Assembly: GCF_000337215.1 (NCBI RefSeq)
Contig: NZ_AOHZ01000084.1
Coordinates: 24,598 to 74,532 of the forward strand
DNA from: Natronolimnohabitans innermongolicus JCM 12255
GTDB taxonomy: Archaea > Halobacteriota > Halobacteria > Halobacteriales > Natrialbaceae
Direction of reading: 5' to 3'
Length of the DNA stretch: 49,935 bases
In this document: positions 9,937 through 49,366 of the stretch, in pieces
Numbering within the stretch: position 1 is the first letter of the stretch
How the letters are laid out: every line of letters starts with the position of its first letter
Notes under the pieces: model-generated
Database searches by the model: none
Seen by the model: only the letters and a program-made list of their open reading frames with translations
Told to the model about the DNA's origin: nothing
Position numbers and translations under genes: made by a program

Positions 9937-10815
9937 TTACTCGTCCTTCTGGCTCTTCTCGACGTCGACGTCCTCGAAGGCGACGTCGCGCTCGGAGACC
10001 TCGACGGTCATGGCGCCGACGTCTTCGATCTCGGCCTCGATGGTGTCGCCGTCGGAAAGCGGGCTGACGCCCTCGGGCGTCCCGGTAGTGATGACGTCGC
10101 CGGCCTCGATCGTCGCGCCGATGGAGGCGTACTCGACGATGTCGGCGCAGCTGTAGATCATGCCGCCGGTGTTCTGTTGCTGTTTGGTCTCGCCGTTGAG
10201 CTGGAGTTCCATCTCGAGGTCGTGGGGGTCCTCGAACTCGTCGGCCGTCGTGACGCAGGGGCCGATAATGGTGAACGTGTCGTAGGACTTGCGGTTCGAG
10301 CGGTCCTGGTCGCCGCGGACGGAGACGTCGAGCAGGATCGTGTAGCCGAGCACGGCGTCCCAGACGTCGTCGGCGTCGATGTCTTTGACGTCTTCGCCCA
10401 TGACGAAGGCGAGTTCGATCTCGTGGTCGACGCGGCGGTCGTTGAAGGGCAGTTCGATGCCGTCCTCGGGACCGGCGACGCTCGAGGGGGCCTTGAGGAA
10501 GTAACCCTTGTCCTCGATGGTGAACCACTCCTCGGTGACGATGTCCTTGTCGGCGAGGGCCTCTTCGACGTGGTTCTCGTAGTTCAGCGGCGCGGCGATG
10601 ACCTTACCGGGCCGGCGGACGGGGGACTCGATGGTGACCTCCTCGCGGTCGTAGTCGGGGTCGTCGTCCGCGTACTCGCTCGCGTCGAGGTCCTTGCGAG
10701 CGTACTCCTTGAGCGGGTCGTTCGTCTCGAGACCGAGGTCGTCGGTGACGTCGACGATGCCGTCGTCGTCGGTCAAGAGCCCGAGTCGATCGTCGTTGAA
10801 TCTGACGAGTCGCAT
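9937..10815 (-). CDS. FAH family hydrolase (fumarylpyruvate/maleylpyruvate hydrolase candidate)
   Basis: A 292-residue fumarylacetoacetate-hydrolase-superfamily protein. The metal ligands are Glu132 and Glu134 in V-D-H-E-I-E-L-A and Asp163 in G-Y-T-I-L-L-D-V-S; the C-terminal G-D-V-I-T-T-G-T-P-E-G-V motif is clear. These enzymes cut C-C bonds of acylpyruvates or decarboxylate keto acids. With a gentisate-dioxygenase-like gene nearby, cleavage of fumarylpyruvate or of maleylpyruvate to pyruvate plus a C4 acid is the best guess. The start at 10815 is set by the TATA-like box CATAAA (10840-10845, minus strand TTTATG) 27 bases away, so the mRNA is probably leaderless. An N-terminal extension of nine codons is possible. 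Confidence 0.88.
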   Translation of the reverse strand: MRLVRFNDDRLGLLTDDDGIVDVTDDLGLETNDPLKEYARKDLDASEYADDDPDYDREEVTIESPVRRPGKVIAAPLNYENHVEEALADKDIVTEEWFTIEDKGYFLKAPSSVAGPEDGIELPFNDRRVDHEIELAFVMGEDVKDIDADDVWDAVLGYTILLDVSVRGDQDRSNRKSYDTFTIIGPCVTTADEFEDPHDLEMELQLNGETKQQQNTGGMIYSCADIVEYASIGATIEAGDVITTGTPEGVSPLSDGDTIEAEIEDVGAMTVEVSERDVAFEDVDVEKSQKDE

Positions 10816-11035
10816 GATAGCAACACCGCGATCCGACCACATAAATCATCCTCTCTCGGTCGCGGGTGTCGAAAAAATAGTGAAGGTTTCGTGCGCGGAG
10901 ACGTCTCGCCGGGCCGGCAACGAGCGCCCGAGAAGCGACACGGCGGCCGCGTTCAGACGGACGGACGACTGACCTCCGTTCCGACACGACCGCGACCACC
11001 CTGGGCCGTGTAAGGTATCGGTACAGCAGCCCGTC

Positions 11036-11361: not shown

Positions 11362-12447
11362 TTACTCGCTGGGCGCCGATTCGGCGTAGAAATTGAACGC
11401 CTCGAACACCGGTCGGTCGGTCATGCCGAGCAGGATCGCTTCCTCGCCGTCGGGCTCGTGGCTGTGGAGTTCGTTCGGCGGGACCACGAAGATGTCCCAC
11501 TGGCTCCACTCGAGCGTTTCGTCGCCGACGTGGGTCGCGCCCTCGCCCTCGATGACGAAGTAGACCTCGGTGGCGTTGTGGAAGTGGGTCTCGGTGGCCT
11601 CCTGGAGCAACTGGGCGCGAAACGACATCGTCGGGAACAGCGGCGGCTGGCCGTTGGTCGGGTTGACGTAGGCCATGCTGTAGCCGTCGTAGGGGTCCGG
11701 CGTGTTGTTGTCCGCGCGCTGGCGCAGCGTCCGGACGGTCTCCTCCCAGCTGAAGCGGTGTGGCGGCGTCGGGTCACGGATGCCCTCGAACGGCCCCGGA
11801 ATGCCGTCGTCTTTCGACTCGTCGGCCGGACGGGCCTGGCCGAACTGGGAGTCCCAGTAGCCCTGGGTCTTGGTGACGGGCTGGCGCTCGAGTTCGTGGT
11901 TCTCGAAGACGTTCGAGGAGTTCAGCGAGTCGAGCACGAGCGGCAGGTCGAGGACGTCGAGCCACATCGCCGTCTCGTCGGAGTCGTTGACGTGGTCGTG
12001 CCACTCCCACTGTGGCGTCGTGATCAGGTCGTTGTTCTCCATCGGGAACTCCTCGCCCGCGACGACGGTTTTCATGTCCTCGTGGCCGTCGATGGTAAAG
12101 CGCAGGGCGTTGGCCCCGTGGCGGTGCGAGGGGGCCGTCTCACCGGGCGAGACGGTCTGGACGCCGAGGTAGATCGTGTTCGAGATCGCGTTCTCCATCC
12201 CGGTGTTGATCGGGACGGCGACCCGGCGCTGGAATCCCGGCGGGAGCTCCTCGATCGGCATGTCCTCCTCGACGTTGTCGATCGTCTCCTTGATGTCCGC
12301 CCACTTCCAGATGTCCGGCTGCAGGTCGTCGTAGACGTTCCCCATCGTCTTCTCGACTTCCCACAGCGGCCGAAGGTCGTTCTCCTCGAGAAGGTCTCGA
12401 GTCTCCGAAGTCAGTTCTATACGCTCTTCGGGGTCCTGCTGAGCCAT
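11362..12447 (-). CDS. Gentisate 1,2-dioxygenase-like bicupin
   Basis: About 361 residues with two cupin domains. The first has the iron-binding pair His108/His110 in A-P-S-H-R-H-G-A-N-A-L-R-F, exactly the pattern of gentisate 1,2-dioxygenases, and the second has E-T-H-F-H-N-A-T-E-V-Y-F-V in the C-terminal third. The enzyme opens the ring of gentisate (2,5-dihydroxybenzoate) with O2 and Fe(II) to give maleylpyruvate. The ATG at 12447 is chosen because CTTATGA on the minus strand (12472-12478) is 28 bases upstream; an ATG at 12474 is the longer alternative. Gentisate dioxygenase has been described from Haloferax, so the call fits the lineage. 1-Hydroxy-2-naphthoate or salicylate dioxygenase are related possibilities. 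Confidence 0.87.
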   Translation of the reverse strand: MAQQDPEERIELTSETRDLLEENDLRPLWEVEKTMGNVYDDLQPDIWKWADIKETIDNVEEDMPIEELPPGFQRRVAVPINTGMENAISNTIYLGVQTVSPGETAPSHRHGANALRFTIDGHEDMKTVVAGEEFPMENNDLITTPQWEWHDHVNDSDETAMWLDVLDLPLVLDSLNSSNVFENHELERQPVTKTQGYWDSQFGQARPADESKDDGIPGPFEGIRDPTPPHRFSWEETVRTLRQRADNNTPDPYDGYSMAYVNPTNGQPPLFPTMSFRAQLLQEATETHFHNATEVYFVIEGEGATHVGDETLEWSQWDIFVVPPNELHSHEPDGEEAILLGMTDRPVFEAFNFYAESAPSE

Positions 12448-12540
12448 AGTGGTATTTTCGGCAAGAATCATCATAAGTGTGTTGGAGAGTCCCGCAGCGA
12501 AGGAGCCCGCGTCGAGATCTGCCGCGGGAAGCGAGGGCCG

Positions 12541-14132: not shown

Positions 14133-15368
14133 TCAGTAGTTTCCGGTCGAGACGATCGGCGGGCCCTGGTGGGGACCGTACGGCGCGTCGTCGAGCCACT
14201 CGCCGGCGACCTCGAAGTGGTCGGACATCTCCGCTGCGACTTCCTTGCGGAGCACCGTCACCGGGTCGTCGCCCTGGAGGTACTCGAGCGCCTGCCCGGC
14301 GGCGCCGATGTTGTACTCGGCAGCCGTCTCGCGGCGGGCGGCGAACAGTTCCACTTCGTCGTGAGCGACGGCTTCAGTCTGCGCGTCGAGCGCCACCGAG
14401 ATGGCCGATGCGGCCTCGTCGGCGTCGGGGACGCCGGAGTTCATCCCGCGGGCGCCAAACGGCGCGAGCAGGTGGGCGGCCTCGCCGGCGAGCAGGACGC
14501 GCCGGTGTTCGTCGATGAACGTGTCGGCCTGAACCTGCAGGAAGTGGTACGTCGAGACCCACTTCAGCTTGTCCTCGTACTCCTCGCCCATGATGTCGCG
14601 GACGAACTCTCGCATCTGCTCCTCGCCGCTGAGTTCCTCGGGGTCGTCGTCGCCGATACACTGGATGTCGAGGCGCCAGCCGCCGGTGAACGGAACCAGC
14701 AGCACGTTTCGACCGTCGGCCTCGGGCGCGTCGTAGTGAAACATGCGCTCGAGGTCCGGGTGGTCGTCGTCGATCTCCTCGTCCTCGACGTCAGCGATGA
14801 TGAAGGCGTTCTCGGACTGGTCGCCCTCGAAGTTCGCGCCGATCTCCTTGCGAACCTGCGAGCCGCCGCCGTCCGCGCCGATCAGGTACTCCGTCTCCCA
14901 CTCGCGACCGTCGCCGGTCTCGACAGTGACGCCGTCCGGCGAGGAGTCGACGGAGACGACCTCGGACTCCCAGTGGATCTCGATGCCGGCCTCCTCGAGG
15001 GCCTCGAGCATGTACTGTTCGGTGACGACCTGCGGGACGCTGGTAAAGTGCGGAATGTCACCGGAGCCGCCGGGGGAATCGTACGTCCGGTTGAACACTT
15101 CCTTGCCCTTGTACAGCGTCCGTCGGGTCGGCCAGACGAGTCCTTCCTCGACGAGGTCCGTGCCGAGGCCGGGGTGGATGCGCTCGAACGTCCGCAGCGT
15201 CGCACCGTGGACGTAAATCGCGCGGCTCCCGTCTCGGTCCCGGTCTTCCGGTTCCGCCTCGAGGATCGCCGTGTCGATTCCGCGCGCGTTCAGTGCCAGT
15301 GCTGCGGTCATGCCGACTGGTCCTGCGCCCGCGACCAGAGCCGGCTTGTCTGTCGTGTTTCCGCTCAT
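14133..15368 (-). CDS. FAD-dependent aromatic monooxygenase
   Basis: A 411-residue flavoprotein of the p-hydroxybenzoate hydroxylase group. The dinucleotide motif G-A-G-P-V-G is at residues 14-19, the D-G motif is seen in Y-L-I-G-A-D-G-G-G-S-Q-V-R, and the second FAD motif reads V-L-L-A-G-E-A-A-H-L-L-A-P-F-G-A-R-G-M-N-S-G, with Glu for the usual Asp. These enzymes hydroxylate aromatic rings with NAD(P)H and O2. Near a gentisate dioxygenase, a hydroxylase producing gentisate (from 3-hydroxybenzoate or salicylate, or acting on an aroyl-CoA) is a reasonable guess. The minus-strand ACTATGAC near 15391-15398 is a TATA-like box about 27 bases before the ATG, so the gene probably has its own leaderless promoter. 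Confidence 0.88.
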   Translation of the reverse strand: MSGNTTDKPALVAGAGPVGMTAALALNARGIDTAILEAEPEDRDRDGSRAIYVHGATLRTFERIHPGLGTDLVEEGLVWPTRRTLYKGKEVFNRTYDSPGGSGDIPHFTSVPQVVTEQYMLEALEEAGIEIHWESEVVSVDSSPDGVTVETGDGREWETEYLIGADGGGSQVRKEIGANFEGDQSENAFIIADVEDEEIDDDHPDLERMFHYDAPEADGRNVLLVPFTGGWRLDIQCIGDDDPEELSGEEQMREFVRDIMGEEYEDKLKWVSTYHFLQVQADTFIDEHRRVLLAGEAAHLLAPFGARGMNSGVPDADEAASAISVALDAQTEAVAHDEVELFAARRETAAEYNIGAAGQALEYLQGDDPVTVLRKEVAAEMSDHFEVAGEWLDDAPYGPHQGPPIVSTGNY

Positions 15369-16422: not shown

Positions 16423-17178
16423 ATGACCGATAGCTTCCGGGTCGGCCTGATCGTCCCGAGTTCGAACGTCACCATGGAGACGGAGATTCCGGCGATGATC
16501 GACGCGCGGCCCGACCACCTCGGCGAATCGTTCACGTTCCACTCGAGTCGGATGCGGATGCAAAGCGTCACGCAGGAGGAACTCGAGCGCATGGACGCCC
16601 AGTCCGAAGAGTGTGCGACCCTGCTCTCGGACGCACACTGTGACGTGCTCGCGTACGCGTGTCTGATCGGCATCATGGCCCAGGGGCCGGGCTACCACGA
16701 AGAGAGCGAAGCGAAACTCCGCCAACGGACCGCCGAGAACGACGCCGAGGCACCCGTCGTCACCAGCGCCGGCGCGCTCGTCCGCGCGCTCGAGCGACTG
16801 GACGTCGAGGAGGTCGCCCTGATCGCCCCTTACGTCGAAGAGCTCACGCAGACGGTGATCGAGTACTTCGAGAGCGCGGGCGTCGACGTCGTCGACTACG
16901 AGACGCTCGAGTGTCCCGACAACCTCGAGGTGGCACAGCTCGATCAGCGAAACCTCGTCGAGATCGCCGACGGACTCGACACCGACGACGCCGACGCGCT
17001 AGTGCTCTCCTCGTGCGTCCAGATGCCGTCGCTGGTCTCGATTCAGGCCGCCGAGGACCGCTTCGGCCTGCCCGTCTTCTCGGCGGCGACCGCAACGACC
17101 TACGAAATATTCGACGAGCTCGGCCTCAGCACGCAGGTTCCGAGCGCGGGACGGCTCCTCGACGGGGGACTCGACTGA
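16423..17178 (+). CDS. Maleate cis-trans isomerase / Asp-Glu racemase superfamily
   Basis: A 251-residue protein. It has the two catalytic cysteines of maleate isomerases and arylmalonate decarboxylases, Cys80 in A-Y-A-C-L-I-G and Cys198 in S-S-C-V-Q-M-P-S, and the early binding motif V-P-S-S-N-V-T-M-E-T-E at residues 11-21. Maleate isomerase converts maleate to fumarate. In this cluster it could process the maleate produced if maleylpyruvate is hydrolysed directly, feeding the citric acid cycle. A nicotinate-type pathway also uses this enzyme, but no other nic genes apart from a distant M29-like protein are seen. A weak TATA-like GGTTTACC lies about 35 bases before the ATG. Confidence 0.86.
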   Translation: MTDSFRVGLIVPSSNVTMETEIPAMIDARPDHLGESFTFHSSRMRMQSVTQEELERMDAQSEECATLLSDAHCDVLAYACLIGIMAQGPGYHEESEAKLRQRTAENDAEAPVVTSAGALVRALERLDVEEVALIAPYVEELTQTVIEYFESAGVDVVDYETLECPDNLEVAQLDQRNLVEIADGLDTDDADALVLSSCVQMPSLVSIQAAEDRFGLPVFSAATATTYEIFDELGLSTQVPSAGRLLDGGLD

Positions 17179-17668: not shown

Positions 17669-18475
17669 ATGGGTACGGATAACGAGCCGCGACGGATTCA
17701 GTCGGCCGACAGAGTCTGTGACATCCTCGAGCACTTACGCGAGACGGAGTCCGCGACGGTTTCCGAAGTGGCCGACGCCGTCGGCCTGTCGCCGGGGACC
17801 GCACACACGTACCTCTCGACGCTCGAGTCACGCGGGTTCGTCCGGAAACACGACGACGTCTATCGCCTCGGCCTCGAGTTGCTGCCCTACGGCGATCAGG
17901 TCCGGTTACAAAACGACCTCTACCGAGCGGCCACCGAAGAGATCCATCGACTGGCCCACGACAGCGACGCCTGCGCCCACCTGATGACCGAGTACGACGG
18001 GCGGCTGCTCATCTTCCAGGAGTCGTTCGGCGAGAACGCGATCGGGATGGACTTTCACCCCCGAAAGCGCGAACGACCCCAGTCGATGCTCCACTGCACC
18101 GCCGCCGGGAAGGCGATTCTCGCGCACATGCCGGACTACCGCGTCGCCCAGATCATCGAAACGCACGGCCTCGCTTCCTACACCTCCTCGACGGTCACCG
18201 ACGAAGCCGAACTCGCCGCCGAACTCGAGCAGATCCGAGAACGGGGGTTCGCGCTGAACGACCAGGAGCAGATGCGCGGACTCCGGGCAGTCGGCGCGCC
18301 GATTCGCTACGACGGCGAGCACGTCGTCGGCGCCGTCAGTCTCTCGGGCGGAGCGAGCAACTGGAGCGGCGAACGCTTCCGGCAGGAACTCCCCGAAAAA
18401 GTCATGCGTGCCGCCAACGCTATCGAAGTGAATCTTCACTCGGAGCTAAGCGGGACGGAACGGCCGTTCGTTTGA
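17669..18475 (+). CDS. IclR family regulator of module A
   Basis: A 268-residue IclR protein: winged helix-turn-helix at about residues 10-68 (recognition region L-S-P-G-T-A-H-T-Y-L-S-T-L), then a ligand-binding GAF-like domain with H-C-T-A-A-G-K-A-I-L-A-H. The ATG at 17669 gives the normal N terminus and agrees with a TATA-like region about 27 bases upstream. Three copies of a TTTGAT-N3-ATCAAA type palindrome flank it, one before the gene, one covering its own stop codon and one before the amidohydrolase gene. This makes it the likely regulator of the amidohydrolase-Rieske operon that follows, and of itself. Confidence 0.9.
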   Translation: MGTDNEPRRIQSADRVCDILEHLRETESATVSEVADAVGLSPGTAHTYLSTLESRGFVRKHDDVYRLGLELLPYGDQVRLQNDLYRAATEEIHRLAHDSDACAHLMTEYDGRLLIFQESFGENAIGMDFHPRKRERPQSMLHCTAAGKAILAHMPDYRVAQIIETHGLASYTSSTVTDEAELAAELEQIRERGFALNDQEQMRGLRAVGAPIRYDGEHVVGAVSLSGGASNWSGERFRQELPEKVMRAANAIEVNLHSELSGTERPFV

Positions 18476-18485
18476 TCACATCAAA
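18471..18485. promoter_or_regulatory. Candidate IclR operator 2, perfect palindrome TTTGAT-CAC-ATCAAA
   Basis: A perfect 6-3-6 inverted repeat that includes the TGA stop codon (18473-18475) of the IclR gene. It is read on the other strand as TTTGATGTGATCAAA, the same as the consensus of the two flanking sites. It could be an auxiliary site for looping with the sites 850 bp upstream and 157 bp downstream. Confidence 0.6.
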
Positions 18486-18627
18486 TCCATTTGAAGCGCC
18501 GAACGCGGCTGATTCCACCGAAATCGGCACTGACGACACAAACGACGAGCGCTCGAGACCGATTTCACGCGTAGATATGACGACAGTACAGCTGTAAATT
18601 AGTCAACGGACGTGACGATTATCGTGG

Positions 18628-18642
18628 TTTGAAGTGATCAAA
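18628..18642. promoter_or_regulatory. Candidate IclR operator 3, TTTGAA-GTG-ATCAAA
   Basis: One mismatch from the palindrome TTTGATGTGATCAAA. It lies about 25 bases upstream of the TATA-like TATATTTAG (18668-18676) that should serve the amidohydrolase-Rieske operon. Confidence 0.65.
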
Positions 18643-18743
18643 TCAACGTCGAGAGAACCTGAAGCACGTATATTTAGCTGGTGGTACGGGAAATCGGTTC
18701 CCGAGACCACAGGCCTATGTATACCCCCACCCGATGTTGGGTC

Positions 18744-19862
18744 ATGCTCGAGTCAGACGAGAGTCGACGACGAGAGGAGACCCTGGACAAATACCACGTC
18801 ATCGACGGCGACTGTCACTACATGGAGTCGTTCCACGACGTCGCCGAGTACATGGAAGAGCCCTGGAAGACGAAGTTCGAAGGGAGCAACTTCGACGAGA
18901 AGGGCGCCAAGCAGAACCTCAGTTCGTTCTTCCCGTTCTCGACCGGCGACCGACAGGCCCACGGCAAGGTCACCCGCGAACACTCCTCGTACCCCGACGA
19001 CCCCGAAACGCCCGAGCGCATCCGCGAGGGCATGGAAGCGATCGGCGTCGACGAGACGCTCCTGATTTCGCACCTGATTCTCGCCGGCGCGGGGACGACC
19101 GCCGACGACGACCGCCAGAGCGCGTTCGCCAAGGCGTATATCGAGTACATGCTCGAAGAGGTCCTCGACCCCGACGACGGCATTCACGGGCTCGCCCCCA
19201 TCCCCTACGGCGACGTCGAAGCCTCGATGGAGATCCTCGACCGCGTCGAGGACGAGGACGCCTACGTCGGCGCCTGTTTCGTCACCGCCGGCGCGACGCC
19301 GCCACTCGGCAACCGAAAGTACGATCCGCTCTACGAGCGGTGTGAGGAACTCGGCCTCCCCGCCGTCTTCCACACCGGCGGCGCCGGCCTCGACGAGTAC
19401 GTCCGCGCGGGCTACCAGGAGATGATCGAGACGCACACGCTCGGCTTCCTCGAGTCGAACATGTCCCAGATCGTCAGTCTCGTCATCCAGGGCGTGCCGG
19501 AGAAGTTCCCCGACCTCGACATCGTCTTCATGGAGTCGGGCATCACCTACATCCCGGGCCTGATGACGCGCCTCGACGAGGAGTACCTCAAGCGACCCGA
19601 AGAGGCACCGCTGCTCGAGAAAAAGCCCGGTGAGTACATCACTGACTTCTACTACGGCACCCAGCCCCTCGAGATTTCGGCCGACACGGAGTACCTCGAG
19701 AAGTGTTTCGACATGGTCGGCACCGATAGCCTCATGTACGCCTCGGACTACCCGCACTGGGACTACGACCGTCCGACGACTGTCACCGACCTCCCGTTCC
19801 TCTCGGAGGACGAAAAGAAACAGATCCTCTCCGAAAACGCCAAAGAGGTGTTCGACCTATGA
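18744..19862 (+). CDS. Amidohydrolase family 2 protein (module A)
   Basis: About 372 residues with the amidohydrolase-2 TIM-barrel pattern seen in ACMSD and gamma-resorcylate decarboxylase relatives. The N-terminal metal site reads D-G-D-C-H-Y (Asp23, His25), with Cys between them; a barrel His is in V-F-H-T-G-G-A, and the last metal Asp is in Y-A-S-D-Y-P-H-W-D. Members hydrolyse C-N or C-O bonds or decarboxylate aromatic acids without oxygen. The start is uncertain: ATG 18744 is preferred, ATG 18717 is nearer to the TATA-like box at 18668-18676. It overlaps the Rieske gene by ATGA. The gene order is repeated in module B at 31.5-34.2 kb on the other strand. Confidence 0.85.
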   Translation: MLESDESRRREETLDKYHVIDGDCHYMESFHDVAEYMEEPWKTKFEGSNFDEKGAKQNLSSFFPFSTGDRQAHGKVTREHSSYPDDPETPERIREGMEAIGVDETLLISHLILAGAGTTADDDRQSAFAKAYIEYMLEEVLDPDDGIHGLAPIPYGDVEASMEILDRVEDEDAYVGACFVTAGATPPLGNRKYDPLYERCEELGLPAVFHTGGAGLDEYVRAGYQEMIETHTLGFLESNMSQIVSLVIQGVPEKFPDLDIVFMESGITYIPGLMTRLDEEYLKRPEEAPLLEKKPGEYITDFYYGTQPLEISADTEYLEKCFDMVGTDSLMYASDYPHWDYDRPTTVTDLPFLSEDEKKQILSENAKEVFDL

Positions 19863-20236
19863 GCGCCGAGGAACTCATCGAAGTGAAAGCCGCCGACGCG
19901 TTCGACGACGGCGAACGAGAGATCGTCGAGGTCAACGGTGCGGAAGTCGGCGTTCTCCGCGTCGACGGAGAATACCACGCCGTGCGAAACCGGTGTCTCC
20001 ACGACTGCGGTCCCGTCGCCGAGGGCGCCGTCGGCAAGAAACTCGTCGGCGAATTCGTCGAACCCGGGAAACGCGTCGAGAAGGACTACGACGGCGACCA
20101 ACCGATCATCTCCTGTCCGTGGCACGGCTGGTCCTACGACCTCGAGACCGGTGAACAGCTCGCGGACGACGACATCGTCCTCCCAACCTACGACGTCGTC
20201 GTCGAAGACGGGATCGTCTACGTCGCAAACGAGTAA
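19859..20236 (+). CDS. Rieske [2Fe-2S] protein with enlarged inter-motif loop (module A)
   Basis: A 125-residue soluble Rieske domain. Cluster ligands are Cys46 and His48 in R-C-L-H and Cys86 and His89 in S-C-P-W-H-G-W. The distance between the two motifs is 37 residues, against about 15-17 in usual Rieske ferredoxins, and a further Cys50 sits right after the first motif. No signal peptide or membrane segment is visible, so it is cytoplasmic and probably carries electrons to or from a partner enzyme. It is coupled by ATGA to the amidohydrolase gene; the same pairing recurs at 31.5-33.0 kb. A redox partner for an amidohydrolase is not expected from known chemistry. Confidence 0.88.
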   Translation: MSAEELIEVKAADAFDDGEREIVEVNGAEVGVLRVDGEYHAVRNRCLHDCGPVAEGAVGKKLVGEFVEPGKRVEKDYDGDQPIISCPWHGWSYDLETGEQLADDDIVLPTYDVVVEDGIVYVANE

Positions 20237-21172: not shown

Positions 21173-21255
21173 TATATTCTGACTTTTTAACCAATATAAT
21201 AAGTATGATGTGATAGTTAGCATAATATAAACTCCGACATATGATCGGTGTTTTT
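21173..21255 (+). promoter_or_regulatory. Promoter of the first YjiH-like gene, conserved in its duplicate
   Basis: From TATATTCTGAC (21173-21183) to the gene, this stretch aligns without gaps to 23336-23418 upstream of the second copy. It holds a TATA-like AATATAAAC (21223-21232), the block GTGATAGTTA and an imperfect dyad around CATATG (CCGACATATGATCGG at 21235-21249). The segment 21234-21260 is identical in both copies. Confidence 0.55.
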
Positions 21256-22743
21256 ATGACCCATGGGACGATTTGTCGAGCTATGTTCGGCAGTCAGAGC
21301 TGGGAGGATGACGATCACATATCCGGTGAGTCAGTCACACCGGACGAGAAAGAAATCGATGACGTCGATTTCGTCGAGAAGGGGTGGAAACCGACGCTAA
21401 AGTTCATCGCCGCGTTCACAATCGGCGCGTTCGTCTTCCTGCTTCCCGTTCAGTACGAGGGGCAGACGACGATTCCGCTGGACGTAATGATGAACGAAAT
21501 TCAGGCGTTCTCGATGACCGCCGTCGAGATCTTCGCGTTCGCGCTGATCGCCGGCGGTGCAGTCCTGACGACGGTCTCGGAACTGCATTACCGCGGCGTC
21601 ATCAACGTCAGCGAGAACACCGAGCAAACGCTTCAGCTCGATTACTGGCAGACTACGGCGCCGTTCTGGCTCTTTCGAGTCGCGGGGCTCTTCCTCGCCT
21701 CGGCGATCCTTCTCGGCGCCGGACCGGAGTGGTTGATCGGTGATGCGGTCACCAATACTGCCTGGAGCGCGCTCGTGATCACCGTCGCGCTCGTGATTCC
21801 GCTCGGCGCGATTTTCGTGAACCTGCTCGCCGAACTGGGCGGTCTCCAGTTCGTCGGGACGCTCGCCCAGCCGATCATGCGCCCGCTGTTTAACCTTCCC
21901 GGACGATCGGCACTCGACAGTGCAGCGTCCTGGCTCGGTTCGTTCAGTATCGGGTACTACCTCACGCGCAACGTCTTCGACCGCGGTGGCTACAACAAGC
22001 GGGAAGTGTTCGTAATCTGTACGTGCTTCGCGACGGCGAACCTGGGGACTGTGGGGGCGGTCGCAGCCATCCTCGACATCCTTCACATCTTCCCGCTCGT
22101 CGTCTTGCTGTACGTTATCGCGACACTCACCGTCGCCGCGATCCTCGTTCGCATCCCGCCGCTTTCGACCATCCCCGAGGAGTACATCGCTGAGCCAAGC
22201 CCGGAGCCGCAGTTCACCGGCACCGTCGGCGACTACTTCCGCTTCGCGTTCAACGAAGGCGTGCGTACGGCAAAGGAAGGCGATTCGATCCTCCGATCAG
22301 CCGTCGTCGGCTTCATCGACGGCGTCAAGCTGTCCGGAATGATCATCGGTACGGTGCTCACGATCGCGATGGCCGTTCTCATCATCGAAGAGAACTCCGC
22401 AGCCTTCGAGTACCTCGCCGCACCGTTCGTTCCACTGATGACCATTCTCGGGATTCCTGACCCAGAAGCGGCCGCAGTCGGTATCATCCTCGGCGGCGCG
22501 GAGTACTTCATCGGAGCAATCTACGTCGTGGAAGCCGACCTCATGACGAAGGTCTTCGTCGTGATCGTCACCAGTGCGCAGGCGATTTTCTTCGCCGCGT
22601 CCGCACCGATGATGGTCGACATGTTCGACGACATCCCGATGCGATTCCGTGACCTGCTGCTCCTGTTGATCCTCCGGACCGCACTCCTCATCCCTATCGC
22701 CGCGGTTCTGACCCACGCTGTGGCATACCTGGGACTCATCTAA
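21256..22743 (+). CDS. YjiH-like nucleoside-recognition (Gate) domain membrane protein, copy 1
   Basis: About 495 residues, with an acidic cytoplasmic head (E-D-D-D-H-I-S-G-E-S) and roughly ten or more membrane segments. The Gate-type features are visible in W-L-G-S-F-S-I-G-Y-Y-L-T-R-N-V-F and Y-N-K-R-E-V-F-V-I-C-T-C-F-A. It resembles the YjiH family, whose transport role is unproven. I start at ATG 21256, about 28-30 bases after the TATA-like box; an in-frame ATG at 21241 would add five residues. Synonymous differences between the two copies begin after 21260, which agrees with coding from 21256. It is the left member of a tandem duplication with 23419-24906. Confidence 0.8.
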   Translation: MTHGTICRAMFGSQSWEDDDHISGESVTPDEKEIDDVDFVEKGWKPTLKFIAAFTIGAFVFLLPVQYEGQTTIPLDVMMNEIQAFSMTAVEIFAFALIAGGAVLTTVSELHYRGVINVSENTEQTLQLDYWQTTAPFWLFRVAGLFLASAILLGAGPEWLIGDAVTNTAWSALVITVALVIPLGAIFVNLLAELGGLQFVGTLAQPIMRPLFNLPGRSALDSAASWLGSFSIGYYLTRNVFDRGGYNKREVFVICTCFATANLGTVGAVAAILDILHIFPLVVLLYVIATLTVAAILVRIPPLSTIPEEYIAEPSPEPQFTGTVGDYFRFAFNEGVRTAKEGDSILRSAVVGFIDGVKLSGMIIGTVLTIAMAVLIIEENSAAFEYLAAPFVPLMTILGIPDPEAAAVGIILGGAEYFIGAIYVVEADLMTKVFVVIVTSAQAIFFAASAPMMVDMFDDIPMRFRDLLLLLILRTALLIPIAAVLTHAVAYLGLI

Positions 22744-23147: not shown

Positions 23148-23418
23148 CAAGTTACCGGCTACTCGACGGGATTCCTCGTCGAAGTCGGCAACGGTTCGGC
23201 AGTTCGTTACAACGAGGGCGAATGCCAGATTCGAGGCCCCCGAGAGAGTCAATGTACTGACCGAGATCGCTTGTACCGCCAGCGAGGCGACGACACCGGT
23301 GGTCTCAACCAAGCCAGCCGGTCAGCCGTACCGTATATATTCTGACCTTCGTGAAGAAATGCTAAGTGTGTAGTGATAGTTATAATAGTATGTAGTCCGA
23401 CATATGATCGGTGTTTTT

Positions 23419-28005: not shown

Positions 28006-31000
28006 ATGACTGCGAGCCCCACCACTTCGCTCGACGACACCGACGCCGAGCCAACGGCCGACGAACGCGCCGACTACGACTACGTGTCCGACGACGTCGA
28101 ACGTCCCGATCTGGTCGCCGACCTCCGCGACCGGATCGACGGCGACGTCCGGTTCGACACCTACTCCCGCGAGCTGTACGCGACCGACGCGAGCGCCTAC
28201 AAGGCGACGCCGATCGGCGTCGTCTTTCCGACGTCGACCGAGGACGTCGCGAGCGTCGTCTCCTACTGTGCCGACCGCGAGATTCCGGTCCTGCCACGCG
28301 GCGGCGGGACGAGCCTCGCCGGGCAGGCGGTCAACGAGGCCGTCGTCCTCGATTTCACGCGGTACATGGACGAGATACGCTCGATCGACGCGGACGACCA
28401 GCGCGTCCGCGTCCAGTCCGGCGTCATCCTGGAGGAACTCAACGATTCGCTCGCCCCCCACGGGCTGAAGTTCGCCCCCGACCCGGCAGCGGGCAACCGC
28501 AGCGTCATGGGCGGCGCGATCGGCAACAACTCGACGGGAGCCCACTCCCTTGTCTACGGGAAGACCGACGCCTACGTCGAGGAGTGTGAAGTCGTCCTCG
28601 CCGACGGCACAGTCACGACGTTCGGCGAGACCGACGTCGACGACCTGCGCGAACGGGCCGATCCCGACGGCGACCTCGAGGCCCGCATCGCCGCCGCGGT
28701 CGTCCACATCATCGACGAGAAAGACGGCGCGGTTCGCGACCGGTTCCCGAACCTGAAGCGCAACGTCTCGGGGTACAACCTCGACGTGCTGATCGAGGAA
28801 GCGGAGAGCGGCTCCGTCAACCTCGCGCGCCTGCTCGCCGGCAGCGAGGGGACGCTGGCGACGATCACGGAGGCCGAAGTCTCCCTCGAGCCGGTTCCCG
28901 AGACGAAAGCCGTCTCCCTGCTGTTCTACGAGAGCGTCCTCGAGGCCGTCACCGACGTCCAGCACGTCCTCGAGCACGACCCCGCGGCGGTCGAGCTCAT
29001 CGACGACGTCCTGATCGGCCTCGCGCGTGAGACCGCCGAGTTCGAGGAGATCGCCGCGCTCGTCCCCGACGACGCCCAGGCGGCGCTGCTGGTCGAGTTC
29101 TACGCCGAGGACGACGACCACGGCCGCGAACAGACCGCCGGACTGCTCGCCGACCGCATTCCAAAAAGCGAGAGCGCAGTCGAGGCTCCCGACGATCACC
29201 CCGAAATCGACGAAACGCTCGGCTTCGAGGGACTCGAGGCCCACGCCGAGGCAGACCGCGAGCAGTTCTGGAAGCTGCGCAAGGCGGGGCTGCCGATCCT
29301 CCTCTCGCGGACCTCGAACGAGAAGCACATCTCCTTCATCGAGGACTGTGCGATCCCGCCGGAGCACCTGCCGGAGTTCGTCGATCGGTTCCAGGAACTG
29401 CTCGCCGACCTCGACCGGGACGTCGACGCGGCCTTCTACGCCCACGCGGGCCCCGGCGTGCTCCACGTCCGCCCGCTCGTGAACACGAAGGCGGCCGAGG
29501 ACCGCGACGACATGGTCACGATCGCCGACGAGGTGACCGACATGGTCGTCGAGTTCGGCGGCAGCGTCTCCGGCGAGCACGGCGACGGCCGCGCCCGAAC
29601 CCAGTGGAACCGCAAGCTCTACGGCGAGGATCTCTGGCAGACGTTCCGCGACCTGAAGACGGCGTTCGACCCGGACTGGCTGCTCAACCCGGGGAACGTC
29701 TGTGGCGACCACGACATGACGGAGCACCTCCGGTACGACGAACTGTACGACCACGACGCCGGCTTCGACTCCGAGCTCAACTGGCGCAACGAGAACGGCA
29801 TGCAGGGGATGGTCGAACTCTGTCACGGCTGCGGCGGCTGTCGCGGCGAACAGGAGACCACCGGCGGCGTGATGTGTCCGACCTACCGCGCCGCCGAGGA
29901 GGAGATCACGAGCACCCGCGGCCGCGCGAACCTGCTGCGAAACGCGATGAGCGGCGACCTCCCCGACGATCCCACCGACGACGAGTTCGTCGACGAGGTG
30001 CTCGACCTCTGTATCGGCTGTAAGGGCTGCGCTCGAGACTGCCCGAGCGAGGTCGACATGGCCAAGCTCAAAACCGAGGTCATGCACGAGCGCCACCAGC
30101 AACACGGCTCGAGCCTCCGGGACAAACTCTTCGCGAACTTCGACCGGCTCGCGCCGATCGGCAGCGCGTTCGCCCCGCTCTCGAACATCGCGACCTCGCT
30201 GCCCGGCGCCGGCACCATCGCCGAAAAGACCGTCGGCGTCGCCCGCGAGCGCTCGCTACCGGAGTTCCACCGCGAGACGTTCCAGGACTGGTTCGAGGCT
30301 CGCGGCGGCTCCCGAATCCTCGAGACCGAGGCCGAGCGAAAGGCCGTCGTCTTCGCGGACACCTACACCAACTACAGCCACCCCGAGGTCGGGAAGGCCG
30401 CGGTCCGCGTCCTCGAGGCCGCCGGCGTCCACGTCGACGTCTCGCGGCGGACCGACAGCGGTCGGCCGCCGCTCTCGAAGGGCTTCATCGACAAGGCCCG
30501 TGACGCGATGCGCGCGAACGTCGCCGAACTCGCGCCCCGCGTCGACGACGGCTGGGACGTCGTCGTCGCCGAACCCTCCGACGCGGTGATGTTCCAGTCG
30601 GACTCGCTCGACCTGCTGGGCGGGGTCGGCGTCGAATCCGTCGCCGCCAACTCCTACGGCGTCTGCGAGTACCTCGATACGTTCCGCCTCGACGAGAACG
30701 TCGACTGGGCCGCTCCCGAGGACTCGGTCGCCTACCACGGCCACTGCCACCAGAAGGCCACGAAGAAAGACCACCACGCCGTCGGCGTCCTCCGGCGGGC
30801 CGGCTACGCCGTCGACCCGCTCGACTCCGGCTGCTGTGGGATGGCCGGCAGTTTCGGCTACGAAGCCGAACACTACTCGCTGAGCCAGTCGATCGGCGAC
30901 ATCCTCGTCGACCAGATCGAAGACAGCGCCGCGACCGTCGTCACCGCACCCGGCAACTCCTGTCGGACCCAGCTCGGCGACAAGCGCCTCGAGCCCGTCC

Positions 31001-31083
31001 CGACGGGCAGTTCGCTCGCCGGCAGCGACCTCGACCGCGACGACCCGCCGACGCCGATCGAACTGCTGGCGTACGCGCTGTAA
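28006..31083 (+). CDS. FAD-linked oxidase/4Fe-4S fusion (GlcD-GlpC type, D-2-hydroxyacid dehydrogenase)
   Basis: A 1025-residue fusion. Residues about 35-260 form an FAD-binding PCMH domain (P-R-G-G-G-T-S-L-A-G-Q-A), about 265-560 the FAD-oxidase C-terminal domain (H-A-G-P-G-V-L-H-V-R and G-S-V-S-G-E-H-G-D-G-R), then a two-cluster ferredoxin region with C-H-G-C-G-G-C and C-I-G-C-K-G-C-A-R-D-C-P, and a C-terminal cysteine-rich CCG region ending in G-C-C-G-M-A-G-S-F-G-Y-E. This layout is known from D-lactate, D-2-hydroxyglutarate and glycolate dehydrogenases that pass electrons to the respiratory chain. The substrate is not readable. It stands alone. All iron-sulfur motifs look intact. Confidence 0.9.
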   Translation: MTASPTTSLDDTDAEPTADERADYDYVSDDVERPDLVADLRDRIDGDVRFDTYSRELYATDASAYKATPIGVVFPTSTEDVASVVSYCADREIPVLPRGGGTSLAGQAVNEAVVLDFTRYMDEIRSIDADDQRVRVQSGVILEELNDSLAPHGLKFAPDPAAGNRSVMGGAIGNNSTGAHSLVYGKTDAYVEECEVVLADGTVTTFGETDVDDLRERADPDGDLEARIAAAVVHIIDEKDGAVRDRFPNLKRNVSGYNLDVLIEEAESGSVNLARLLAGSEGTLATITEAEVSLEPVPETKAVSLLFYESVLEAVTDVQHVLEHDPAAVELIDDVLIGLARETAEFEEIAALVPDDAQAALLVEFYAEDDDHGREQTAGLLADRIPKSESAVEAPDDHPEIDETLGFEGLEAHAEADREQFWKLRKAGLPILLSRTSNEKHISFIEDCAIPPEHLPEFVDRFQELLADLDRDVDAAFYAHAGPGVLHVRPLVNTKAAEDRDDMVTIADEVTDMVVEFGGSVSGEHGDGRARTQWNRKLYGEDLWQTFRDLKTAFDPDWLLNPGNVCGDHDMTEHLRYDELYDHDAGFDSELNWRNENGMQGMVELCHGCGGCRGEQETTGGVMCPTYRAAEEEITSTRGRANLLRNAMSGDLPDDPTDDEFVDEVLDLCIGCKGCARDCPSEVDMAKLKTEVMHERHQQHGSSLRDKLFANFDRLAPIGSAFAPLSNIATSLPGAGTIAEKTVGVARERSLPEFHRETFQDWFEARGGSRILETEAERKAVVFADTYTNYSHPEVGKAAVRVLEAAGVHVDVSRRTDSGRPPLSKGFIDKARDAMRANVAELAPRVDDGWDVVVAEPSDAVMFQSDSLDLLGGVGVESVAANSYGVCEYLDTFRLDENVDWAAPEDSVAYHGHCHQKATKKDHHAVGVLRRAGYAVDPLDSGCCGMAGSFGYEAEHYSLSQSIGDILVDQIEDSAATVVTAPGNSCRTQLGDKRLEPVPTGSSLAGSDLDRDDPPTPIELLAYAL

Positions 31084-31540: not shown

Positions 31541-31906
31541 TCAGATGCGAACGAGGATATCGTCGCCGTCGACGACGCAGTCAAACGTCCCGATGCGCTG
31601 ACCGGAGGCCTCGTGCTCGCCGGTCTCGAGGTCCCACTCCCAGAGGTGCCAGGGGCAGGAAACCGTACACGCCTCCGCGTTGAGGCCGCCGCGTTCGCCG
31701 GTCCAGGTGTCCTCGGCGTTGATCTTCTCGTCGCCGGCCTTGCACAGCGGGGCCCGCTGGTGCGAACAGCGGTTGCTGATCGCGTAGTAGTCGTCGCCCG
31801 TGTTGAAGACGGCGATCTCGATACCGTTGACGTCGTAGCCTTCGCCTTCGCCCTCGGGGATGTCCCCGACCTCTGCGACTTTCGTGAAGTTGTCCGTGTC
31901 GACCAT
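31541..31906 (-). CDS. Rieske [2Fe-2S] protein with enlarged inter-motif loop (module B)
   Basis: A 121-residue Rieske domain with Cys47/His49 in R-C-S-H-Q and Cys84/His87 in S-C-P-W-H-L-W. As in the module A protein, the loop between the motifs is enlarged, here to 34 residues, and it carries extra cysteines (Cys55, Cys80). The second motif has Leu where Rieske proteins often have Gly. The gene starts 2 bases after the amidohydrolase stop, so both are one operon. Cytoplasmic; electron transfer is the family role. It is shorter and clearly diverged from the module A copy, so the duplication is not recent. Confidence 0.88.
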   Translation of the reverse strand: MVDTDNFTKVAEVGDIPEGEGEGYDVNGIEIAVFNTGDDYYAISNRCSHQRAPLCKAGDEKINAEDTWTGERGGLNAEACTVSCPWHLWEWDLETGEHEASGQRIGTFDCVVDGDDILVRI

Positions 31907-31908: not shown

Positions 31909-33042
31909 TTAGATGTCGAGGATCTCCGTGGCGTTCCCGTTGAGGATCTGTTCGCGCGTGTTGTCGTCGAACGCTCGAGACGTGTAGAACCACGTCGCCG
32001 GGTCGAGCGTCTGGTGGGGCCAGTCGCTCGAGTAGATGAACATATCCTCGGCCATCGAGAGGTCGAGGAGGTTCTCGGCGTCGCCGGCGTTACGCGGCAG
32101 TGCAAACGGCTGGGTGCACAGGTAGATGTTCTCCCGCAGGTACTCGCTCGGGGCTTTCTCGAGGTACCGGTCGCCGGATTCCATCTTCCGGGGCGTGATC
32201 TGGACGTCCTCGGGGTGCATCTCGTAGAACTCGTCCATCCGGTAGCGCAGGAACGGCACCCACCAGTGGCCACCCTCCTGGATGACGACGTCCAGGTCGG
32301 GGTACTTGTCGAAGACGCCGCGCATGATCATGTTGACGACCGTGACCATCGCGTGGATCGGCCAGTCGAAGCCGAGCACTTCCGTCCAGGTCAGCATGTC
32401 GTCGCCGATGTAGGAGTGCTGTGGCCAGTAGGCCAGCGAGCCGTGGAGCAACAGCGGCATGTCGTTCTCGACCAGCGCTTCGAAGACCTGGTCGAATCGT
32501 TCGTTCCCCCACGGAACCTTCGGATCGAACCACGAGTACGCCGCGACGATGTTGTTCTCGTTTGCCACCCGTTCGATCTCCGCGACGGCGTAGTCGGGAT
32601 CCCACTTCGGGATCATCATCGAGGTGTACATGCCCTCGTCCGCGAAGTGATCGAGCATGTAGTCGTTGGCCGCCTGGCAGACGGCGTTTTTCAAAACGGG
32701 GTGGTGTTGCAGGTTGAGGTTGTTGATTCCCGGATTGACGATCGGTTCGTCGATGGCGAGTGGCTCGCAGGCCTCCTCGACGTCCTCGGCGTACTTCGCG
32801 CGGCCCTGCGTGAACAGGCCCTCCTGGCCCTCCTTGATCCCGTAGGCCGCGTCCCACTTGCCCATGACCGGCGTCGCGCCGAACTCCGTGGTCAGCTTGT
32901 CGTAGGCGCGCTCGTCGTCGACGTACTCGAGGAGTTCGTCCTCGAGCGGGTTGACGTGGAAGTCGAGGTCGACGATGTAGTCGTCGAACGCCTCCGGCGG
33001 TACTTCCGCATCACTGTCCAGCCGCTTGACTGATGACTCCAT
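31909..33042 (-). CDS. Amidohydrolase family 2 protein (module B)
   Basis: A 377-residue amidohydrolase-2 protein. The N-terminal metal motif is D-L-D-F-H-V-N (Asp27, His29), the barrel His is in L-L-L-H-G-S, and the last metal Asp in Y-S-S-D-W-P-H-Q. The C terminus G-N-A-T-E-I-L-D-I resembles the end of the module A protein (E-N-A-K-E-V-F-D-L). Possible reactions are nonoxidative decarboxylation or hydrolysis of a cyclic or aromatic acid. The ATG at 33042 is favoured because minus-strand TTGAATAC (about 33068-33075) lies near -27; the upstream extension has poor support. It is followed at once by the Rieske gene and preceded by the IclR gene, as in module A. Confidence 0.85.
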   Translation of the reverse strand: MESSVKRLDSDAEVPPEAFDDYIVDLDFHVNPLEDELLEYVDDERAYDKLTTEFGATPVMGKWDAAYGIKEGQEGLFTQGRAKYAEDVEEACEPLAIDEPIVNPGINNLNLQHHPVLKNAVCQAANDYMLDHFADEGMYTSMMIPKWDPDYAVAEIERVANENNIVAAYSWFDPKVPWGNERFDQVFEALVENDMPLLLHGSLAYWPQHSYIGDDMLTWTEVLGFDWPIHAMVTVVNMIMRGVFDKYPDLDVVIQEGGHWWVPFLRYRMDEFYEMHPEDVQITPRKMESGDRYLEKAPSEYLRENIYLCTQPFALPRNAGDAENLLDLSMAEDMFIYSSDWPHQTLDPATWFYTSRAFDDNTREQILNGNATEILDI

Positions 33043-33383: not shown

Positions 33384-34157
33384 TCAGTTCGGCGGGGACT
33401 GCAGCTTCAACTCGAGTTCGTTCGTCGCCTCGAGCAACAGGGGCTCGATTTCCTCGTGACAGCGCTCGACGGTGAGTCGGTTAGCTGGCCCTGAAACGCA
33501 GATCGCGCCGTGAATCGTTTCGTCGTCGATCACCGGCGCGCCAATGGCGCGCAGCCCGGCCACCGTCTCCTTGTCGTTGATCGCGATGCCGTCCTCGCGG
33601 ATCGCCTCGAGTTCGGCCCGTAACTCCTCGGGGTCGGTGATCGTGTGCGGCGTGCGCTCGGGGAGCCCGTGCCGATCGATGATCTCGTCGACGCGCTCCT
33701 CGGGCAGATACGCCAGAATGAGCTTTCCCGTCGCCAGGTGGTGCAGTCGGGCCCGTCCGCCAACGCTCGCGTGCGTCTGGACGGCCCGCTCGCCCATGGC
33801 CTTCTCGAGGTAGACGGCCGTCCCGTGTTCCTCGACGATGAGCCACGCCACCTCGCCCGTCGCGTCCGCGAGGTCCTCGAGGACCGGCTTCGCGAGCCGC
33901 GCCAGTTCTCGGTTGTTCTTGACGAACATGCCGTGCTCGAGGAACTTGAGGCCGAGTTCGTACTCGTCGCCGGTTCGAACCACGTACTCGTTGTGTTCGA
34001 GCGTCGCGAGGTGGCTGTGAATCGTGCTCTTGGCGAACTCGAGTTCGTCGGCCAGCTCCGCCAAGGTGGCGCCGTTCAGCGACTGGAGCGCCTCGATAAT
34101 CTCGAAGAGGGTGTCGGTTGTTTTGACCCGCCGATCCGGACCGTCTCCTTTCGCCAT
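33384..34157 (-). CDS. IclR family regulator of module B
   Basis: A 257-residue IclR protein: helix-turn-helix at about residues 10-68 (recognition region F-A-K-S-T-I-H-S-H-L-A-T-L-E) and ligand domain with H-H-L-A-T-G-K-L-I-L-A-Y. The ATG at 34157 gives the normal N terminus; the longer frame has no support. It lies directly upstream of the amidohydrolase-Rieske operon in the same direction, the same order as in module A. The 16-bp CATATG palindromes before this gene and before the amidohydrolase suggest it controls both. An 8-bp inverted repeat GTCGTTTC/GAAACGAC (34185-34211) near its promoter is a further candidate site. Confidence 0.9.
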   Translation of the reverse strand: MAKGDGPDRRVKTTDTLFEIIEALQSLNGATLAELADELEFAKSTIHSHLATLEHNEYVVRTGDEYELGLKFLEHGMFVKNNRELARLAKPVLEDLADATGEVAWLIVEEHGTAVYLEKAMGERAVQTHASVGGRARLHHLATGKLILAYLPEERVDEIIDRHGLPERTPHTITDPEELRAELEAIREDGIAINDKETVAGLRAIGAPVIDDETIHGAICVSGPANRLTVERCHEEIEPLLLEATNELELKLQSPPN

Positions 34158-34330: not shown

Positions 34331-35101
34331 TCAGCGAAGCGATAGGTTGACCTCGATCTCGTTGACGGCAGTTTCGATTTCGTCGACGAGCGTCTCGCGA
34401 TAGGCCTCGTCGTCGAGTCGCTTGATCGGCCCCGCGATTTCGACAGCTCCGTGGGGCCGACCGTCATCGCCGAGTATCGGCATCGCGATCTCGAGTACCC
34501 CCTTGATGCTCTCCCCACGGCCGTACGCGATCCCCGCCGTCCGGATCGACTCGAGTTCGGTGTAGAGTTCGTCCTCGTCGGTAATCGTGTTCGGCGCCTC
34601 CGGCGGCATCCCCCATCGTCGGACGATCTCGTCGACCCGTTCGGGAGACAGGTGCGCCAGAATGGCCTTTCCCGTGGCCGTACTCGTCATCCGAGCCTGG
34701 CCGCCCGGGAGGAACCGTCGACGGATGGAGTTCTCGCCCTCCGCGACGGCGACGTTCGTCGCCAGGCCGTTCTCCTCGACGGCGAAGTAGGCCTGTTCGC
34801 CCGTCTCCTCGGCCAGCGTCTCGATCGTCGGCGAGACGATCTGGCGCAGTTCGTGTGACTGCTCGATCGTCCGACCCAGGTGGACGAACCGATAGCCGAG
34901 GCGGTACGTGCCGTCGTCGTTGACCAGATAGCCCAGCTGGTTGAGCGTCGCCAGATGCGAGTGGACCGTGCTCTTGGGGAGTTCGAGGTGAGCCGAAATC
35001 TCCGAAACGCTCCCGGCCGTCTCTCGTTTGAGGAACTCGACGATCTTGAACGTCGTGCGAACCGACTTGAGCTGTGTCGTGGCCGGGTCTTGGCGTGCCA
35101 T
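34331..35101 (-). CDS. IclR family transcriptional regulator (fourth)
   Basis: A 256-residue IclR protein with helix-turn-helix at about residues 10-68 (recognition region L-P-K-S-T-V-H-S-H-L-A-T-L) and ligand domain with T-S-T-A-T-G-K-A-I-L-A-H. The ATG at 35101 follows a TATA-like minus-strand TTTATTG (about 35124-35130). A nearly perfect palindrome at 35132-35152 directly abuts that box. It lies between module B and the CoA ligase/carboxyltransferase/hydratase operon, all on the minus strand, so it may control either. Its recognition helix resembles that of the first IclR protein (P-K-S-T), and so does its putative operator. Confidence 0.9.
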   Translation of the reverse strand: MARQDPATTQLKSVRTTFKIVEFLKRETAGSVSEISAHLELPKSTVHSHLATLNQLGYLVNDDGTYRLGYRFVHLGRTIEQSHELRQIVSPTIETLAEETGEQAYFAVEENGLATNVAVAEGENSIRRRFLPGGQARMTSTATGKAILAHLSPERVDEIVRRWGMPPEAPNTITDEDELYTELESIRTAGIAYGRGESIKGVLEIAMPILGDDGRPHGAVEIAGPIKRLDDEAYRETLVDEIETAVNEIEVNLSLR

Positions 35102-35131
35102 ACCACATGACACAACGTGCGGACAATAAAG

Positions 35132-35217: not shown

Positions 35218-36009
35218 TTACTGCCCTTCGAACTCCGGTTCGCGGCCCTCGAGGCGGGCCGTGAATCCCTCCGTGTAGTCGTCGGTTTCGGTCAGTTTCT
35301 CGCCGAGTTCGCCCTCGAGTTCGAGTCCTTGCTCGAGCGGCGTCTCGAGCGCGGCGTTTAGCATCCGCCGGGCGTGTTCCATGCCGAGCGGCGCGTTCTC
35401 GGCCAGCGAGTCCGCCCACTCGCGGGCGCGGTCGTCGGTGGCCGATCGATCGTCGACGACCTCGTGGACGAGCCCGCACCGTTCGGCCTCCCGCGGATCG
35501 ATGTAGTCGCCGGTGAGGACGAGTTCCTTCGCCTTCGAGAGCCCGATCAGTCGCGGCAACCGCTGGGTCGCCCCGCCGGAGGGGAACAGCCCCAGTTCGA
35601 CCTCGATCACGCCGTACTTCGCGTCCTCGCTGATGATCCGGAAGTCGACCGGCAACACGAGTTCGAACGCGCCCGCGATGGCGGCGCCCTTGATGCTCGC
35701 GACCGAGGGGACGGTCATGTCGTCGATGAAGTGCGTGACGTCGTCTAACCCCATCTCGAGGTCGGGCGCGTCGTCCTCGCCACGGCGTTTCATCATCTCG
35801 AGGTCCATCCCGGCACAGAAGACGTCACCTTTTCCGCTCAGGACCATCGCCCGGACGTCGTCGCGGTCGTCGACCTCCTCGAGTGCGGTACGGAGGTCAC
35901 GGAGGAGCGCCTGATTCATCGCGTTCCGCCGTTCGGGTCGGTTGAGAACGACGTCCGCGCGGTGGTCGTCGATACGCAGCAGTACGTTACCGTCGCCTAT
36001 CTCTCGCAT
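35218..36009 (-). CDS. Enoyl-CoA hydratase/isomerase family protein
   Basis: A 263-residue crotonase-fold enzyme. The oxyanion-hole segment is D-V-F-C-A-G-M-D-L (around Ala66/Gly67), the second is S-I-K-G-A-A-I-A-G-A-F-E (about residues 105-116), and the acid residue candidate lies in E-L-G-L-F-P-S-G-G-A-T-Q (138-149). It hydrates or isomerises an enoyl-CoA, but ring-opening, thioesterase and decarboxylase activities occur in the family. ATG 36009 is supported by minus-strand TTTTACG about 30 bases upstream; a GTG at 36015 is the alternative. It is 104 bp downstream of the carboxyltransferase gene, so it may have its own promoter. Confidence 0.88.
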   Translation of the reverse strand: MREIGDGNVLLRIDDHRADVVLNRPERRNAMNQALLRDLRTALEEVDDRDDVRAMVLSGKGDVFCAGMDLEMMKRRGEDDAPDLEMGLDDVTHFIDDMTVPSVASIKGAAIAGAFELVLPVDFRIISEDAKYGVIEVELGLFPSGGATQRLPRLIGLSKAKELVLTGDYIDPREAERCGLVHEVVDDRSATDDRAREWADSLAENAPLGMEHARRMLNAALETPLEQGLELEGELGEKLTETDDYTEGFTARLEGREPEFEGQ

Positions 36010-36113
36010 ACGCACTCGAGTAGGACGAACGGGTACGTAAAAGTTCAGTCGACCGCGGCGGTCGGCCCGGCAGACGGAGTGACGTACGACGAACGACGAT
36101 CGATCCCGACCGC

Positions 36114-47048: not shown

Positions 47049-47057
47049 GGGTGATAC

Positions 47058-49266: not shown

Positions 49267-49366
49267 TCTCCTCGGCGCCAGAACAGCATACTAGCGGCCG
49301 TCGACAGTGCCGGCGGCCATCCGTCGGATCCCCACCGTTTATCTATCGAGACGGCAACGATATCGC

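Follow-up and report, generated by a model that had tools for sequence, protein, structure and literature searches.

Haloarchaeal amidohydrolase/Rieske gene pairs as candidate dinuclear oxygenases linked to genes of gentisate breakdown

AibH1H2 of Rhodococcus wratislaviensis, described in 2021, hydroxylates 2-aminoisobutyrate together with the Rieske protein AibG and the reductase AibF (PMC7782822) and requires a Mn/Fe site (PMC10401708). PtmU3, a diiron hydroxylase of the platensimycin pathway, is biosynthetic and acts on a CoA-bound substrate (PMC7782822). SfbO and three further enzymes were found through a neighbouring small Rieske gene, in work that gave the class the name amidohydrolase-related dinuclear oxygenases, or AROs (PMC10811679); among 555 listed ARO-like proteins, some of them haloarchaeal, 90% have an adjacent Rieske gene (PMC10401708). 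The AROs characterised so far in these papers oxidise aliphatic or N-alkyl C-H bonds, not aromatic acids, and the authors who defined the class stated that native substrates could not be inferred from gene neighbourhoods. The premise of the earlier, sequence-only reading of the locus described here, that amidohydrolase-2 enzymes have no known requirement for electrons, is thus outdated by AibH1H2/AibG/AibF, PtmU3 and SfbO (PMC7782822, PMC10401708, PMC10811679), and the kind of system that it took to be unrecognised had already been defined as a class, precisely through Rieske adjacency (PMC10811679).

The window, i.e. the whole stretch of 49,935 nucleotides of Natronolimnohabitans innermongolicus JCM 12255 that was analysed, contains the trio IclR / amidohydrolase-2 / Rieske twice, on opposite strands, with identical gene order and relative orientation (copies A and B); the coordinates first read from the sequence were confirmed, and the Pfam families are IclR, Amidohydro_2 and Rieske. 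A third pair, copy C, is new here and lies on the same contig (C84), just outside the window on its right-hand side:

17669..18475, + strand: IclA, IclR-type regulator of copy A (Pfam IclR_C 3e-29, HTH_IclR 5e-14)
18744..19862, + strand: ARO-A (AmA), dinuclear-oxygenase-type protein of PF04909; ATG start; six AibH2 ligands plus an acid at 342
19859..20236, + strand: Rieske ferredoxin A (RiA); Pfam Rieske; CxH-x37-CxxH, long spacer
31541..31906, - strand: Rieske ferredoxin B (RiB); Pfam Rieske; CxH-x34-CxxH, long spacer
31909..33042, - strand: ARO-B (AmB), PF04909; six ligands; Thr at the second-sphere position D342 of AibH2
33384..34157, - strand: IclB, IclR-type regulator of copy B; ATG start, open frame to 34250; Pfam IclR
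34331..35113, - strand: second IclR-type regulator adjoining copy B (Pfam)
74654-75016 and 75019-76089, in contig C84 coordinates: Rieske and amidohydrolase of copy C, 120 bp past the right end of the window

For A and B, the Pfam matches score 1.9e-36 and 2.1e-21 (Amidohydro_2) and 4.8e-13 and 1e-14 (Rieske). The last two genes of each trio are as tightly packed as had been claimed, the amidohydrolase stop overlapping the Rieske ATG by 4 bp in copy A (ATGA) and a gap of 2 bp separating the two genes in copy B. In the source genome (4.6 Mb, 121 contigs) we found 6 Amidohydro_2 and 6 Rieske-domain matches in total. Because three of only 6 matches of each kind form adjacent pairs (A, B and C), all on contig C84, the pairing goes beyond chance; no Rieske gene adjoins the other three Amidohydro_2 genes. 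Copy C (C84:74654-76089; locus L005:4655-6105) neighbours a gene of the lactate/malate dehydrogenase family and an ABC transporter.

The description of A and B as a duplicated module holds for gene order and orientation but is otherwise overstated. The two amidohydrolases share about 28% identity, the Rieske proteins 37% and the IclR proteins 38%, and in the tree the amidohydrolases fall into separate clades, i.e. different subfamilies, ruling out a recent segmental duplication as the origin of A and B. Copy C is 70% (amidohydrolase) and 67% (Rieske) identical to copy A, so that by sequence comparison the true paralogue of A is C rather than B, and the three pairs are best described as an assembly of related pairs, not duplicates of one module. 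The regulators were considered separately: IclA and IclB are not sisters in a quick tree, which rules out a shared ancestral IclR, and copy C has no IclR directly upstream. An IclR gene is nearby in 16 of 25 B-type loci, and we treat the proposed IclR control as a prediction. Among relatives elsewhere, Haloterrigena turkmenica carries on pHTUR01 (289576-290162, locus L105) an A-type ARO that is 87% identical, apparently fragmented and has no annotated Rieske gene adjoining, and Halopenitus malekzadehii (locus L074) has several B-type AROs (five matches), one of them fragmentary and accompanied by a short-spacer Rieske.

To define the metal site we used the AibH2 ligand set D25, H27, H211, E265, D337 and H340 as reference (PMC7782822/PMC10401708). 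In the alignment, all six ligands are present in A, B and C and in nearly all relatives. The top PDB sequence matches of both A and B are the AROs 8sm7, 8sm6, 8sm9 and 8sm8 and AibH2. An AlphaFold model of AmB (mean pLDDT 73, pTM 0.81, 20 sequences; weak around residues 203-224 and 341-343) matched AROs with Z values of 31-34, PtmU3 with 28.5, DitZ (8uyr) with 28.4 and decarboxylases with at most 26, and AROs were also nearest in Foldseek; a literature search found no paper on DitZ. In the neighbourhood check, nearly all relatives have a Rieske gene immediately after the amidohydrolase gene and in the same direction, and a B-type Rieske is present in 25 of 25 B-type loci, a few of which come from one strain. 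The amidohydrolase-2/Rieske pairing is therefore as stable as the sequence-only reading supposed; it is real, and already known in kind. The suggestion of a mono-oxygenase-like system is well supported by the ligands, structural matches and Rieske adjacency, and by sequence copy A is very probably an ARO-type monooxygenase, an assignment that we extend to copy B with good confidence.

The Rieske partners may carry a mark of their own. In ARO-partner Rieske proteins, 31-37 residues separate CxH from CxxH (37 in RiA, 34 in RiB), whereas the small Rieske proteins found here outside tight ARO pairs have a spacer of 16-18, about half that length. The long spacer also occurs in ARO partners encoded on plasmids of Salipiger, Phaeobacter, Aminobacter and Mesorhizobium, and hence in both archaea and bacteria, but it is not universal, as one ARO/Rieske pair of Halobellus limi has the short form. 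A description of the long spacer as a mark of ARO partners was not found in the literature.

The window further contains homologues of a gentisate dioxygenase, a maleylpyruvate hydrolase and a maleate isomerase, which together would make up a lower gentisate pathway; these are assigned by homology only, with scores below the NCBIfam equivalog cut-offs. They are listed here with other neighbours of the pairs:

9937..10842, - strand: FAH-fold protein; its best relative of known structure is maleylpyruvate hydrolase (6jvv)
11362..12474, - strand: bicupin ring-cleavage enzyme of the gentisate 1,2-dioxygenase type (from homology and co-occurrence)
14133..15368, - strand: FAD_binding_3 flavoprotein monooxygenase, a general companion of the dioxygenase
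16423..17178, + strand: Asp/Glu racemase family protein of the maleate cis-trans isomerase type; both catalytic Cys regions align
21241..22743, + strand: Gate-domain permease, recurrent ARO-B neighbour (paralogue at 23404-24906)
28006..31083, + strand: FAD/FeS fusion of the 2-hydroxyacid dehydrogenase type (GlcD-GlpC-like), recurrent ARO-B neighbour

Together, the dioxygenase, hydrolase and isomerase homologues would convert gentisate to fumarate and pyruvate; the route from gentisate through maleylpyruvate to maleate, with the hydrolase HbzF, has been described in Pseudomonas alcaligenes (PMC5658364). The two Gate-domain permeases (500 aa) are highly similar and stand in tandem between copies A and B. 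The copy-B IclR genes are followed by genes for an enoyl-CoA hydratase, an mmdA-like carboxyltransferase and a CoA ligase (35218-39357), none of which recurs near other ARO-B genes. Towards the right end lie a tripartite tricarboxylate transporter, TctC-TctB-TctA (44913-48035, - strand), and, at 48295-49864, a gene for a 323-aa protein with no Pfam match (M29-like by eye) followed by a DUF3237 gene; a DUF3237 homologue (74%) also adjoins an A-type ARO at another locus (L042).

Co-occurrence was analysed in two sets, one of 146 order-level genomes, with orthologues defined by at least 67% identity for A and at least 64% for B, and a second, named set of 18 B-type genomes that may share a few species with the first. 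A gentisate 1,2-dioxygenase was present in 19 of the 146 genomes, including 7/7 with an A orthologue and 7/7 with a B orthologue (union, 11/11). The remaining genomes contain it in 8 of 135 cases (p 7e-12) and those with only other ARO subfamilies in 1 of 33 (p 1.6e-9); both p-values ignore phylogeny and overstate the evidence, because related genomes are not independent samples. The 1/33 value implies that the dioxygenase link is not general to AROs. In the named set, the dioxygenase is present in 17 of the 18 B-type genomes, the exception being one draft MAG. The nesting is one-sided: apart from that MAG, every genome seen to carry an A- or B-type ARO also has the dioxygenase, but 8 dioxygenase genomes lack these AROs. 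A FAD_binding_3 monooxygenase of the 14133-15368 type accompanies the dioxygenase in 35 of 37 genomes, ARO-less ones included, which weakens the idea of the ARO as a general gentisate-forming hydroxylase. The one-sided nesting and the near-constant flavin monooxygenase suggest that the AROs supply the pathway from upstream as optional enzymes and are not the core gentisate-forming step.

The co-occurrence could also arise if the AROs were genuine monooxygenases unrelated to gentisate that merely accumulate with the dioxygenase on the same catabolic megaplasmids, a plausible explanation to which we assign less than even weight. Many relatives are plasmid-borne, the nearby transporters vary (ABC, TRAP, TTT), and ARO and dioxygenase are on different contigs in several genomes, which counts against the gentisate link, and on different replicons in Halostagnicola larsenii. 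Shared megaplasmids do not, however, readily account for the contrast of 11/11 with 1/33, nor for the distance between the genes: the dioxygenase lies within about 20 kb of ARO-B in 7 of the 17 named genomes that hold both, where about 1% each would be expected, and ARO-A, ARO-B and the dioxygenase fall within about 27 kb in three genomes (G146, G147, G156). Furthermore, Haloarcula sp. JP-L23 and Haladaptatus salinisoli have the dioxygenase, the maleylpyruvate hydrolase and maleate isomerase homologues, the FAD/FeS dehydrogenase, ARO-B and Rieske-B in one conserved block. The chances that the A- and B-type AROs feed a gentisate-type pathway appear evenly balanced. Nothing linking an ARO to gentisate or aromatic hydroxylation was found in the literature, and the tie of these two haloarchaeal subfamilies to gentisate breakdown appears to be new.

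Copy B differs from A and C in the second sphere of the metal site. Asp342 of AibH2 (Glu313 of PtmU3) contacts the second metal or its water, an acid at this position being reported only in binuclear members and absent from the mononuclear AibH1 (PMC7782822), and the D342A replacement lowers AibH2 activity (PMC10401708). In our alignment the position is Asp in all 54 A-like and reference sequences, A and C included, and Thr (28/29) or Ala (1/29) in the B-type sequences, none of which has an acid. The six first-shell ligands are invariant across the B clade. As the acid is not among the six class-defining residues, B is, on its residues, a candidate variant and not a typical member of the class. 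A B-specific residue replacing the acid as metal ligand was sought; the clade has many conserved Trp and polar residues, but none could be placed at the metals in the model, which is weak in this region. Either ARO-B is thus an ARO whose second sphere has changed, or its family has lost the second metal; we favour the former because its Rieske is never lost. That the missing acid turned ARO-B into a mononuclear or non-catalytic protein like AibH1, at the cost of its oxygenase function, is improbable considering the intact first shell, the constant Rieske and the lack of an adjoining AibH2-type catalytic partner. A second-sphere variant clade that retains its Rieske in 25/25 loci appears to be new.

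The least probable alternative, and a very doubtful one, is that the amidohydrolases act in the aromatic pathway as ordinary hydrolases or decarboxylases with a mononuclear site (gamma-resorcylate or 2,3-dihydroxybenzoate decarboxylase type) and the Rieske serves another enzyme: family and fold are shared and a hydroxybenzoate decarboxylase would suit a gentisate island, but positions 25/27/265 of A, B and C hold DxH and Glu in place of the mononuclear HxH and His265, His340 is retained, all the best structural and sequence matches are AROs, and the Rieske is kept in 25 of 25 B loci and in almost every A-like locus. In the same genome, the three Amidohydro_2 proteins that lack a Rieske neighbour have H or V at 25, H at 265 and no DxH, with HxH in two of the three. 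The DxH...H...E...DxxH set likewise disfavours the redox-linked hydrolase or decarboxylase that the pairing had first suggested.

From the observed ligand set, fold, Rieske linkage and linkage to the gentisate set, we infer the O2 chemistry, metal identity, substrate and regulation of the pairs as follows. The amidohydrolase would be a TIM-barrel protein whose dinuclear Fe/Fe or Mn/Fe site activates O2 for the hydroxylation of a small organic acid, and the co-transcribed Rieske [2Fe-2S] protein would be its dedicated electron donor, reduced in turn by a ferredoxin reductase encoded elsewhere; neither an AibF-type nor another ferredoxin reductase was seen among the annotated window genes. Because each pair has one amidohydrolase gene and no AibH1-type second subunit, it would hydroxylate with one catalytic subunit, as PtmU3 and SfbO do, and would probably be switched by an IclR-type regulator in response to substrate or product. 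The peripheral oxidation would yield gentisate or a gentisate-like ring, to be cleaved by the product of 11362-12474, hydrolysed to maleate and pyruvate by that of 9937-10842 and isomerised to fumarate by that of 16423-17178. Overall, the reading that we favour as probable is that the pairs are ARO monooxygenases that may feed an aromatic-acid/gentisate pathway as peripheral enzymes. The recurrent 2-hydroxyacid dehydrogenase beside ARO-B weakly suggests alpha- or benzylic hydroxylation. A more specific and tentative proposal, less likely than not, is that ARO-A and ARO-B, as dinuclear oxygenases, hydroxylate aromatic or benzylic positions and so provide haloarchaea with a peripheral route to gentisate, in B with the second-sphere acid naturally replaced; for the B loci, one candidate is that an arylacetic acid undergoes alpha-hydroxylation and its product is then taken up by the FAD/FeS 2-hydroxyacid dehydrogenase encoded alongside.

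Native substrates are known for hardly any AROs, and the strict gentisate tie of two haloarchaeal subfamilies narrows the candidate substrates to a few that can be tried in growth experiments with culturable organisms. Whether O2 activation requires the acid next to the second metal is a question for which the B clade is a natural test case. Halophiles are reported to be manganese-rich, making them a good place to seek Mn/Fe oxygenases.

Compared with AibH1H2-AibG-AibF, the pairs have in common the PF04909 catalytic subunit and its six ligands, an adjacent small Rieske ferredoxin and a catabolic operon, but no AibH1 partner or AibF-type reductase was seen in the window, identity is only about 25%, and ARO-B has Thr for Asp342. 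PtmU3, a dinuclear hydroxylase, shares the amidohydrolase fold and the absence of a second subunit; it is more distant (Z 28.5), biosynthetic and dependent on a CoA-bound substrate (PMC7782822). SfbO and the AROs of 8SM6-8SM9 are the nearest solved relatives by sequence and fold, with the same Rieske adjacency and single catalytic subunit; while their native substrates are unknown (PMC10811679), the neighbourhood here points to an aromatic/gentisate pathway. Finally, the HbzF gentisate pathway (PMC5658364) is matched in the window by homologues of the dioxygenase, of maleylpyruvate hydrolase and of maleate isomerase; its description includes no ARO, whereas the haloarchaeal version is linked to AROs.
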